Shown here: positions 2,296 through 31,412 of the stretch, piece after piece | Numbering within the stretch: position 1 is the first letter of the stretch | Layout: each line of letters opens with the position of its first letter | Assembly: GCA_028693555.1 (NCBI GenBank) | Contig: JAQUVD010000008.1 | Coordinates: 1-64,000, forward strand | Direction of reading: 5' to 3' | Length of the DNA stretch: 64,000 nt | DNA from: Hespellia sp. | GTDB taxonomy: Bacteria; Bacillota; Clostridia; Lachnospirales; Lachnospiraceae | The notes under the pieces: model-generated | The model's database searches: none | Told to the model about the DNA's origin: nothing | What the model saw: the letters and a program-made list of their open reading frames with translations, nothing else | Position numbers and translations under genes: made by a program

Positions 2296-2324
2296 TTGAC
2301 AAATTAAATGAGGAGTGATATTAT
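2296..2324 (+). promoter_or_regulatory. Near-consensus promoter with no protein gene behind it
   Basis: TTGACA (2296-2301), a 17-bp spacer and TATTAT (2319-2324) make a nearly ideal housekeeping promoter. No open frame with a ribosome site follows before the terminator at 2723-2763, so it points to a non-coding transcript. Confidence 0.75.
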
Positions 2325-2330
2325 CTAGTT

Positions 2331-2763
2331 AACAAAAGGAAAGAAAACTTGTTGGGTAGGACACCTGATAAGTAAAATAAAATAATCGAAAGAGAGGAAT
2401 AGTCCAATGGGATGAGTATTTTTTAAAATGAATGTGGCATACGCAAATGTAAAATTCCTGTATGAACGACCTTTGTAATCGAAAGATTCAAACATTTGCG
2501 ATGTATGAAAATATAAACCACGAAAATGTTATAAACGGACAAGGTATCCATAAAAGTTATAGAAAGAATAATTTGACAGGACAAAGGGAGCTCCGTTGAA
2601 AGGGGGTTGCCAAAGTTAAGAATTATAGATAGAATAATTAGATATGGATTTTAGAAAGAAGTGAATGACATAAGAACAAAGGTCGATACAGGAACAAACA
2701 TAAAAAATGTATGAAAAAATATAAAAATGCATCTTCAACTTTGGTTGGAAGGTGCATTTTTTT
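2331..2763 (+). ncRNA. Candidate structured non-coding RNA, about 430 nt
   Basis: The unit is bounded by a consensus promoter and an intrinsic terminator and has no convincing open frame. Internal structure is visible. A 9-bp helix pairs 2442-2450 with 2492-2500 and extends after a bulge (CATA with TATG). Inside it lies a small hairpin with a GNRA-type loop (AATC-GAAA-GATT, 2477-2488). A possible closing pair GGAC/GTCC joins 2359-2362 with 2402-2405. It does not show the conserved cores of RNase P RNA, tmRNA or the riboswitch classes I could compare. Function unknown. An alternative is the decayed remains of a gene. Confidence 0.5.
2723..2763 (+). terminator. Intrinsic terminator of the candidate RNA
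   Basis: Arm 2723-2739 pairs with 2744-2761 (one G-U pair and one bulged C) around the loop TTTG, followed by a run of T. The T-run abuts the -35 box of the next promoter. Confidence 0.8.
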
Positions 2764-2858: not shown

Positions 2859-5858
2859 GTGGATAAAAACGAATACAAGCAAAAAACGGAAGAAATGCTT
2901 GAGCTTTTGGATGATGGTGCATATTCGAGCGCAGCTTTGATTGCGGACGAGATTGACTGGCGCCGCGTCAAGAATGCATCCATGCTTTCTTCTGTGAGTG
3001 ATATCTACGAATTAAACGGGGAAGTTAAGAAAAGCTATGATATTTTACAGATTGCATATGAACGATCTGCGGGGAGCAGAAAGGTTGTATACAGATTGGG
3101 AGAGCTGGCACTTCAACTTGGAAGAATGAATGAAGCGATGGAGTATTATGATGAGTTTGTTGAGATTGCTCCGAAGAATCCAAACCAGTATATTCTAAGA
3201 TATCAGCTTTTGAGAAAACAGAATGCACCGATTGAAGAACAGATTGATACACTGGAGGAGTTCAAGAAAGCGGAATATATTGAACGCTGGGCATATGAAC
3301 TTGCAAAGTTATATCAGGAAGCCGGCATGGTTTCAGAATGTCTGGAAGAATGCGATGACCTGATTCTCTGGTTTAGTGAAGGAACTTATGTGTATCAGGC
3401 GATGGAGCTGAAGATGCAGTATAAGCCGCTGACACCGTCACAGCTGGAAAAATATAATCATCGGTATGATCAGAAAACATATGATGCGGATGGCAATACC
3501 GTACAATTTGCAGCAGTGGAACAGCCAGGAAACGGGGAGGAACCGACAGCCGCGCAGCGACTTGCAAAAGTGGCACAGATTGAACCGGCAGAAGATCTGG
3601 CGGCAATCGAGGCCGCGATGAATGATGAGAGCCCAATCGAAGAGATACCGGATCCGGAAGAAGCACCGGCATCAAAACGCTCTTCAATTTTCAGTGCAAC
3701 AATGAAATTAGGGGAGGCTCTAGATAATTTGATTCATGGCTCAGAGGATGAACCGGAAGAAGAGCCGGAAGAGAGTGCAATCGAAGAAGAACTTCAGGCA
3801 GCAGAACAGGAGATTGCACAACCGGAAGCAGCTCAGAAGGAAGAACCTAGAACACAGAATGTGGAGGCAGTTATGGACGCACCAACAATGAGATTACCAG
3901 ATACAGATGAGATTCTTGCAAAATTAAAGGAACAGAACGAAGAAAAGGCAGTGACACCTGCAAAACAGCCTTTAGAAGAAGCACAGATTACAGGGCAGAT
4001 GAATATGGCAGACATTTTAAATGATTGGGAAGATAATGCAAAGGCAGCGATTCAGGATGCTCCGAAAGCAGCGCCATCCATTCTCCCTCCGGACATTCAA
4101 AAGATGATTGATGATATTGAAAATGGTGTTGTGGAAGACCCTGTTCAGGTTGAGGAACCAGTCGTAGTGCCAAAAGAACCGGAAATATTTGAAAATATGG
4201 GAAATACTGCGGATAATCTTCGTATAGATGAAGAAGAGGATCAGTTCGAAGAAGATGTTGTTGAAGAATCAAAGGAAGTTACGTATGAAGACTCTGAAGA
4301 GGATGTGTTAGAGGAAGAGGACTACGACGAAGATGACTACGATGAAGATGAATTAGATGAAGAGGAACTAGCTGAAGAGGACTATGACGAAGACGAGTTA
4401 GACGAAGACTACGATGAAGATGAGTATGACGACGAAGAGTTCGAAGATGAAGACTATGACGAAGAGGACTACGACGAAGATGACTACGATGAAGACGAGT
4501 ATGACGATGAAGAGTTAGACGAAGACGAGTATGACGACGAAGAGTTCGAAGATGACGACTACGACGAAGATGACTACGAAGACGAAGACTACGACGAAGA
4601 CGACTATGAAGACGAGGACTACGACGAAGAGTTAGACGACGAAGACTATGACGAAGACGAGTTTGAAGACGAGCCAGACGAAGAAGATTTCGACTATGAC
4701 GAGGATGAATTCGAAGAAGAGGATTTCGATGACGAGGATGAGTTTGAAGACGAATTCGATTATGATGAAGATTTTGAAGACCCAGATTTAGAACAAAAAA
4801 TTGTTGCAGCAGCAACTGCGGCGGCAACAGCAAGTGAAAGAGCAAGAGAAGAGGCAAGGGCGAAGGCTGCGAAGCCAGAGATTGATGATCGCGAGATTCC
4901 AGATGACGATATTCCGGATCTTCTGACTCAGACTGCACCACTTAGCAGAAAAGAAACGGCAAAGATGATTGCAACAGGAAAGACAGCACCACTTCCGGTG
5001 GATGAGATTTCAAACGCGATTTCCATGTCGGACACAGGCTTCATTGTTCATGGACGTTATGATCTTGAAACACAGAGCGGCATTGGTACAAGAGCAGGGC
5101 TTACAGAGGATCAGAAGAAGTTATTCTCTTATTTCGTACCGGTACGTGGCATGAGCGAGCAGCTTGTTGACGTGTTAGAACAGGACAAGAACTGCACGAA
5201 GCGTAATGGCACATCCTGCACGGGCAATCTTGTTATTATCGGACGCAAAGGTTCTGGTAAGACTGTACTGGCAGTCGATGTTGTGAAAGCAATTCAGAAA
5301 CAAAGAAAGATTAAGCAGGGGAAGGTTGCAATTGTGACTGGAGATGCTTTGAATAAGAAGAGAGTCAGCGAGATTCTTGGAAAACTTTACGGTGGAGCGT
5401 TAATTATTGAAAAAGCTGGAAAGATGAATGAGAAGACGGTTGCAAGACTGAATAAAGCAATGGAAGGCGATACTGGCGAGTTATTAATCGTACTGGAAGA
5501 GCAGAGAAAGCCGCTCGATCGTCTGCTGACGTCAAATAAAGAATTTAGAAGAAAATTCACATCCAGATTGGAAGTGCCAATTTTCATCAATGATGAGCTT
5601 GTGACATTTGGTCAGACTTATGCAAGAGAGAATGGATACCGTATTGACGAGATGGGCATCCTCGCATTGTATAGCAGAATTGATGCTCTGCAGCGAGAAG
5701 ACCATGCAGTTACAGTTGCAGAAGTAAAAGATATCATGGATGAAGCACAGGAACATTCGAAGAAGACATCGGCGAAGAAGCTTGTGAAACGAGTATTTGG
5801 TAAGAGTACAGATGAATCAGACAGGATCATCCTGACAGAGAAAGATTTTAATATCTAA
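2859..5858 (+). CDS. TPR protein with long acidic repeat and C-terminal AAA-type ATPase domain
   Basis: 999 residues; function unknown. Three parts are visible. An N-terminal helical repeat region (about 1-190) resembles tetratricopeptide repeats (YRLGELALQLGRMNEAMEYY). A low-complexity middle follows, with an extreme Asp/Glu/Tyr stretch at about residues 476-644 built from DYDEDDYDEDE-like units. The C-terminal ATPase domain has a P-loop GRKGSGKT near residue 797, an acidic Walker B-like strand (ELLIVLEEQ) and an arginine-rich segment after it. The GTG start is chosen because GAGGTGAG sits just before it. It has its own promoter and terminator. The acidic tract may act as a flexible or cation-binding spacer (inference). 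No partner gene is adjacent. Confidence 0.85.
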   Translation: MDKNEYKQKTEEMLELLDDGAYSSAALIADEIDWRRVKNASMLSSVSDIYELNGEVKKSYDILQIAYERSAGSRKVVYRLGELALQLGRMNEAMEYYDEFVEIAPKNPNQYILRYQLLRKQNAPIEEQIDTLEEFKKAEYIERWAYELAKLYQEAGMVSECLEECDDLILWFSEGTYVYQAMELKMQYKPLTPSQLEKYNHRYDQKTYDADGNTVQFAAVEQPGNGEEPTAAQRLAKVAQIEPAEDLAAIEAAMNDESPIEEIPDPEEAPASKRSSIFSATMKLGEALDNLIHGSEDEPEEEPEESAIEEELQAAEQEIAQPEAAQKEEPRTQNVEAVMDAPTMRLPDTDEILAKLKEQNEEKAVTPAKQPLEEAQITGQMNMADILNDWEDNAKAAIQDAPKAAPSILPPDIQKMIDDIENGVVEDPVQVEEPVVVPKEPEIFENMGNTADNLRIDEEEDQFEEDVVEESKEVTYEDSEEDVLEEEDYDEDDYDEDELDEEELAEEDYDEDELDEDYDEDEYDDEEFEDEDYDEEDYDEDDYDEDEYDDEELDEDEYDDEEFEDDDYDEDDYEDEDYDEDDYEDEDYDEELDDEDYDEDEFEDEPDEEDFDYDEDEFEEEDFDDEDEFEDEFDYDEDFEDPDLEQKIVAAATAAATASERAREEARAKAAKPEIDDREIPDDDIPDLLTQTAPLSRKETAKMIATGKTAPLPVDEISNAISMSDTGFIVHGRYDLETQSGIGTRAGLTEDQKKLFSYFVPVRGMSEQLVDVLEQDKNCTKRNGTSCTGNLVIIGRKGSGKTVLAVDVVKAIQKQRKIKQGKVAIVTGDALNKKRVSEILGKLYGGALIIEKAGKMNEKTVARLNKAMEGDTGELLIVLEEQRKPLDRLLTSNKEFRRKFTSRLEVPIFINDELVTFGQTYARENGYRIDEMGILALYSRIDALQREDHAVTVAEVKDIMDEAQEHSKKTSAKKLVKRVFGKSTDESDRIILTEKDFNI

Positions 5859-31339: not shown

Positions 31340-31412
31340 GCGCGATTAGCTCAGTTGGTAGAGCACCTGACTCTTAATCAGGGTGTCGAGGGTTCGAACC
31401 CCTCATCGCGTA
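31340..31412 (+). tRNA. tRNA-Lys (anticodon CTT)
   Basis: Cloverleaf seen: acceptor GCGCGAT/ATCGCGT (first pair G-U), D arm GCTC-AGTTGGTA-GAGC, anticodon stem CCTGA/TCAGG with loop CTCTTAA, and T arm GAGGG-TTCGAAC-CCCTC. The discriminator is A and the CCA is not encoded. An upstream TATAAT (31329-31334) is too close to be its -10; the AT-rich stretch at 31300-31312 is a likelier promoter. Confidence 0.95.

Follow-up and report, generated by a model that had tools for sequence, protein, structure and literature searches.

The question raised by this locus of Hespellia sp. is what lies between metG (209–2119) and the gene for a TPR/acidic/AAA-like protein (2859–5858). The window, i.e., the whole 64,000-nucleotide stretch analysed, had been read earlier from its letters alone, and this sequence-only reading proposed a new large structured RNA at 2296–2763. 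The best explanation found here is a separate RNA gene, a member of a class outside Rfam 15, whose action in trans and gating by ribosomes are inferred in the absence of transcript data; we give this explanation a probability of roughly 80%. The transcription unit has three elements:

2296–2324, plus strand: promoter TTGACA-17-TATTAT with an extended −10 (TG), seen in the sequence and with equivalents upstream of homologs.
2331–2763, plus strand: predicted RNA of ~433 nt, delimited by promoter and terminator (fold z = −8.0).
2725–2763, plus strand: intrinsic terminator hairpin and T7 tract (z = −6.4).

The −35 box TTGACA (2296–2301) and the −10 box TATTAT (2319–2324) are separated by 17 nt and match the consensus at 11 of 12 positions, with a TG ahead of the −10 box. 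The start of the RNA was inferred to lie 7 nt past the −10 box. The terminator hairpin (approximately 2725–2757, −16.1 kcal/mol) runs into seven T residues (2757–2763); it is absent from the pattern-scan listing and is evident by reading the sequence. The minimum free energy of the whole 437 nt is −104 kcal/mol versus −66.6 ± 4.7 kcal/mol for shuffled sequences, none of 100 shuffles being equal to it. The near-consensus promoter, the intrinsic terminator and the folding of the predicted transcript of ~430 nt claimed by the sequence-only reading were all recovered. Judged by these signals, from which the transcript is predicted, 2296–2763 is an independent transcription unit, a stand-alone RNA gene.

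Two other features of the window may be mentioned. A long near-perfect hairpin (ACACAAAATATGGGGG...CCCCCATATTTTGTG) at 2148–2201, 3′ of metG, is probably the metG terminator, and a tRNA gene at 31340–31412 is the sole Rfam match in the window.

By DNA search, the sister species L003 was found to have a syntenic copy at 70% identity, and another congener gave short matches; further homologs were gathered by inspecting the DNA upstream of the neighbouring gene. Covariance model R1 was built on a four-sequence seed that included the congeners and excluded the window copy. This seed was used because MAFFT, applied to the first six homologs, aligned the window copy and L015 incorrectly. R1 scores the window copy at 80.9 bits (E = 2.2e-14) and the congeners at 159–185 bits, but the latter were in its seed. 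Matches to R1 were obtained in 74 of 397 family genomes; model R2, with the window copy in its seed, matched 86 of 387 family genomes and 75 of 334 genera, with a single match per genome in all but two of the 86. In one of these two, the extra match apparently reflects a contig end at which the copy was divided or duplicated. The genome sampling was strictly filtered, and the prevalence is a lower bound.

An order-wide search gave matches in 30 of 392 genomes, exclusively in the host's family. The single extra match of a class-wide search (L255) was weak, having a Shine–Dalgarno sequence and an ATG but no core, and was rejected. Viral contigs contained one match to the core pattern, at a contig end, and phage and plasmid collections were negative at the sensitivity of blastn. 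When named genomes were scanned for the pattern, 113 stretches were returned, and the 80 listed among them belong to Dorea, Mediterraneibacter, Faecalicatena, Extibacter, Muricomes, Schaedlerella, other Lachnospiraceae and gut MAGs; being chosen by sequence, this set was left out of the covariation analysis. Going by the named records, the class appears so far only in Lachnospiraceae, with no convincing match outside.

The genome of the window harbors a second unit of ~260 nt (L002:1501-1800, G000:C59:82817 onward), which shares the promoter and contains a terminator as well as GGAAGGTATGGTCCACC and a hairpin with a GACGAGAAA loop. It is not matched by R1, and R2 matches only the window copy in this genome; the unit is possibly a distant or reduced paralogue.

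Few features of the class are as uniform as the promoter. A near-identical TTGACAAAT...TGnTATTAT with an extended −10 was found upstream of 70 of the 71 homologs checked, and strong constant expression is therefore inferred, although no expression data are available. The folded elements of the window copy are as follows:

2347–2373, plus strand: 5′ hairpin ACTTGTTGGGT/ACCTGATAAGT (z = −3.65).
2434–2437, plus strand: 5′ strand of helix b, GTGG, pairing with 2518–2521 (62 homologs).
2442–2450, plus strand: 5′ strand of helix c, CGCAAATGT, supported by the homolog pairing test.
2455–2476, plus strand: 5′ strand of P2 (TTCCTGTAT + CGACCTTTGT).
2477–2488, plus strand: inner GAAA hairpin, occupying the place of the homologs' helix d and P3 strand.
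2492–2500, plus strand: 3′ strand of helix c, ACATTTGCG, supported by the homolog pairing test.
2518–2521, plus strand: 3′ strand of helix b, CCAC, pairing with 2434–2437.
2555–2639, plus strand: stem of the 3′ domain with facing 7-nt internal loops AGAAAGA/AGATAGA (z = −3.67).
2676–2694, plus strand: 3′ strand of P2 (ACAAAGGTCG + ATACAGGAA), perfectly complementary to 2455–2476 save for a 3-nt bulge.

The 5′ hairpin has undergone one compensatory change, G-C to A-T, against L003, and in 31 of 75 homologs a GACGAGAAA-loop hairpin with variable, complementary stems is found instead. Helix c is the 9-bp helix described in the sequence-only reading, found at exactly the positions given there, and the GAAA-loop hairpin placed inside it is present as AATC-GAAA-GATT.

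Pairing was assessed across the homologs. For helices a, c and d (77 homologs), 91.7% of cells are paired versus 77.5% after shuffling, and 179 double-sided changes were counted versus 44; none of 500 shuffles was as good, and slid controls were paired at 21–41%. The alignment leans to c and d, which are included in R1, while helix a lies outside the model and is unaffected by this bias. With anchored strands, helix a is 97.5% paired versus 85.1% when permuted (z = 11.3), and its variants include CAATATGT/ACATATTG, CAATATGG/CCATATTG, CAATATGA/TCATATTG and CAATATGC/GCATATTG. Helix b gave z = 5.2 with anchored strands. P2 joins the region after helix c to the 3′ end (e.g., TTCCTGTG/CACAGGAA, TTCTTGCG/CGCAAGAA and TTTCCCGC/GCGGGAAA), and its strands match those of their own RNA better than swapped strands of other species (z = 10.5). 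These tests disregard phylogeny, and their z values are optimistic. P3 (ATCGGAG/CTCCGAT) is nearly invariant, so covariation is uninformative for it (strand-swap z = 0.6); its assignment is supported only by the conservation of two complementary strands and by their having been lost together in the window copy.

The strands follow one another in the order a5 b5 c5 P2-5 d5 P3-5 d3 c3 a3 b3 P2-3 P3-3. Hence, helices a and b cross, as do c and P2; the crossing with c makes P2 a pseudoknot, and the core is a set of interlocking pseudoknots. The minimum free energy fold of the window copy contains P2 and not c, as expected of crossing helices. In the 3′ domain, an element GUUAU-AGAARGA-AUAAC recurs in variable copy number, both at 2555–2639 and in the 3′ regions of L055, L046 and L045. 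Pairing between two copies leaves purine-rich internal loops of 7 nt opposite each other, and the element is a candidate protein-binding or tertiary module.

Most homologs carry a small ORF inside this structure: GGAGG is followed by TCCA-NTG-GA and by 15–35 codons starting with ATG, TTG or GTG. The long form (25–35 codons) ends past the core and reads MDN..E...QYVSGMANxSSRRISLNHR; the short form (15 codons) is MGTTDSHHQYESGIA. In the QYESG group (L197–L229), the 15-aa ORF ends at a conserved GCATAG directly 5′ of P2, and a gene for an RluA-type pseudouridine synthase follows at several loci of the group. The spacing from the start codon to helix b is 34, 37 or 40 nt, always 1 mod 3, in the first 29 ORF-bearing members measured. 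Between the start codon and helix a, stops occupy 5 of 432 codons in frame, whereas the two alternative frames have 42 in 379 and 23 in 376. The kept frame and the depletion of stops imply that the ORF is translated, or was until recently, in most members. Its codons at the same time make up the 5′ strand of each of the helices a, b, c and P2. A start codon, a frame and a coding pattern, taken together as the mark of an ORF-bearing member, are found in most homologs and not in the window copy; for some entries, the intact or broken state was read by eye from the translations.

These features allow the possibility that the small peptide (MD...QYxSG...) is the product that matters and the RNA is merely its mRNA, with structure that controls translation only. 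The frame and start codon retained in most members, the depleted in-frame stops and the QYxSG residues common to the 28-aa and 15-aa forms all point that way. However, the ORF is gone in the window copy, the sister species and several other members in which the core helices persist, and P2 and the 3′ domain extend far beyond it. The conserved residues, moreover, overlap helix strands, and the series QYVSG, QYGCG, QYESG tracks compensation in helix a. As the peptide explanation is also inapplicable to the window copy, we consider it improbable, and an RNA that functions as such remains preferred.

At the position of the ORF, the window copy retains only remnants:

2392–2397, plus strand: relic Shine–Dalgarno sequence GAGAGG, aligned with the homologs' GGAGG.
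2407–2415, plus strand: relic small ORF ATG GGA TGA (2 codons), aligned with the NTG start of the homologs' QYxSG ORF.

The sequence-only reading had denied both a ribosome site and a convincing frame here. A long frame is indeed absent, but GAGAGG and the ATG at 2407–2409, with GGA TGA next, occupy the positions homologous to the conserved Shine–Dalgarno sequence and start codon. Of the four congeners examined, the window species and L003 (TTG GGA TTA TAA) have lost the ORF, which is also broken early in L202, L204, L210, L221, L222 and L225. Helix a is gone in both the window copy and L003; d and P3 are further lost in the window copy, where b, c and P2 remain. With its R1 match and the pairing of b, c and P2, and without a and d, the window copy is, by comparison of the sequences, a reduced member of the class. 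With this single derived member to go by, the sequence-only reading missed the ORF, the long-range P2, the pseudoknots and the spread across the family.

Reduction might instead mean decay, the window copy being a mere relic. Besides the ORF, three helices (a, d and P3) are missing from it, and it scores far below the congeners, albeit with a model seeded on them. Against decay, the promoter, the strong terminator, the 19-bp P2 and the 9-bp helix c are all intact, and the fold is as stable as noted above (z = −8.0). Paired changes against L003 are also seen in P2 (C-G to A-T) and in the 5′ hairpin. A decaying relic therefore seems quite unlikely, and we retain the view of a reduced RNA gene.

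The neighbourhood of the RNA varies. Of 75 loci, 32 have the TPR/AAA gene downstream, 7 were assigned an RluA-like gene by pattern, with further cases seen by eye, and 36 have other genes there. The most frequent neighbour, at 2859–5858 in the window, encodes a 999-aa protein that has TPR at its N-terminus, which is conserved across the family, together with a long tract rich in Asp and Glu and a weak AAA domain resembling that of CbbX/SpoVK. The promoter of this gene lies at 2762–2790, and its −35 box (TTGACA from 2762) starts within the T-tract of the RNA terminator, so that terminator and promoter are fused (2757–2790); the arrangement recurs in several homologous loci.

Were the RNA a leader or attenuator acting in cis on the TPR/AAA gene, its position directly upstream of that gene on the same strand in 32 of 75 loci would be accounted for, as would its terminator. 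The gene, however, has its own promoter, similar promoters are found ahead of it where a genome has no RNA upstream, and other clades have the RNA ahead of an RluA-like or unrelated gene. The constant downstream main ORF expected of a uORF attenuator is missing. Because neighbours vary and the TPR gene is served by a separate promoter, the RNA is not the leader of one gene, and a role in cis is very unlikely; the separate RNA gene is again favored.

Comparison with known RNA classes gave consistently negative results. Searches of Rfam 15 with the region (E ≤ 10) gave no match of note, as with the twelve homologs, which gave no relevant one. The small-E matches in the region and homologs were microRNA models falling on plain hairpins, mostly terminators, including by chance the hairpin after metG, and were rejected. 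RNase P RNA (RF00010/RF00011), tmRNA (RF00023) and 6S RNA (RF00013) were not detected in the region. This genome has its type A RNase P RNA at G000:C26:78950-79299 (298 bits; type B absent), a canonical tmRNA at G000:C50:32380-32720 (140.8 bits) and 6S RNA at G000:C64:4376-4553 (59.3 bits). Neither the covariance model of raiA/ModT (RF03072) nor the Rfam models of ROOL, GOLLD and OLE matched the region or the twelve homologs. The raiA search found nothing in any of the 397 family genomes, and control genomes were equally silent.

A divergent form of raiA/ModT, 6S, RNase P, tmRNA or ROOL/GOLLD/OLE is hardly credible: the free-standing pseudoknotted unit does resemble ModT and GAGGAATAGTCC resembles the RNase P core, but no bacterial-RNA model is significant in thirteen members, the canonical tmRNA, RNase P and 6S genes sit elsewhere, and the GAGG...TCC similarity to RNase P was dropped since homologs show a Shine–Dalgarno sequence and start region there. 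The proposal of the sequence-only reading, a possible new large structured RNA, which an Rfam match or a lack of covarying pairs was to refute, passed on both counts, with many homologs and strong compensatory change in its favor. In the main text of two large ncRNA surveys, the genera concerned are absent; the supplementary lists lay outside the scope, and a fragment of the class may already stand unnamed in such lists, including the 3161 candidates of PMC8040213. Neither QYVSGM nor QYESG was found in a relevant sense in the open-access literature.

The RNA would be transcribed from its near-consensus promoter, end at its own terminator and fold into the core of interlocking helices. The folded RNA may act in trans as a regulator or as an RNP scaffold. 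Action in trans is most likely by comparison with ModT and similar large structured RNAs present in single copy; no evidence points to any partner, ligand or target. During translation, a ribosome has to unwind helices a, b, c and P2, whose 5′ strands the ORF encodes, and translation and folding would be mutually exclusive; ribosomes may in this way gate folding in most species, an inference from the overlap of the two sequences alone. In many members, a 3′ CCTCCGA complementary to the ORF's GGAGG could alternate between P3 and the ribosome site, which is only a suggestion. With the ORF and helix a lost, the RNA of the window species would fold ungated, and as the ORF is also broken in several members other than the window copy and its sister, gating cannot be essential everywhere. 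A more tentative and, on balance, doubtful extension is that the trans-acting RNA senses translation initiation or elongation and is active when ribosomes are scarce, some lineages having dropped the gate; ORF-less lineages, that of the window included, would keep a constitutively folded RNA.

A strongly promoted, multi-pseudoknotted RNA present as a single copy in about one fifth of the sampled genomes of a dominant gut family is likely to have a general role. It is unusual for a translated ORF to overlap the strands that pair in the core, and this overlap yields a directly testable model of translation-gated RNA folding, for which natural ORF-less members, e.g., the window copy, are ready-made controls.

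Several known systems share some of these features. The raiA motif RNA, or ModT, has two pseudoknots and an abundance rivalling that of rRNA (PMC11706538). The window RNA is likewise a structured, pseudoknotted Firmicutes RNA from a free-standing unit; ModT is strongly expressed, whereas high expression of the window RNA is suggested by the promoter only. Its helices are different, most members of its class have an embedded ORF and the ModT model does not match it. OLE, ROOL and GOLLD are large, intricately folded bacterial RNAs (PMC12286853). The new class is also large and intricately folded; unlike them, it has no Rfam match, its core bears length-variable insertions and a phage link has not been seen so far. 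The uORF/sORF motifs of GC-IGR surveys have a conserved start, stop and coding-like pattern within a structured motif (PMC11109978, PMC8632094). They precede and regulate one main ORF, whereas the new class has changing neighbours and its own terminator, and its ORF forms strands of a pseudoknotted core. Dual-function sRNAs such as SgrS, RNAIII and SR1 are regulatory RNAs that also bear a small ORF, as in the new class. In those RNAs the coding part and the RNA part are largely separate, whereas in the new class the codons are the core helices.
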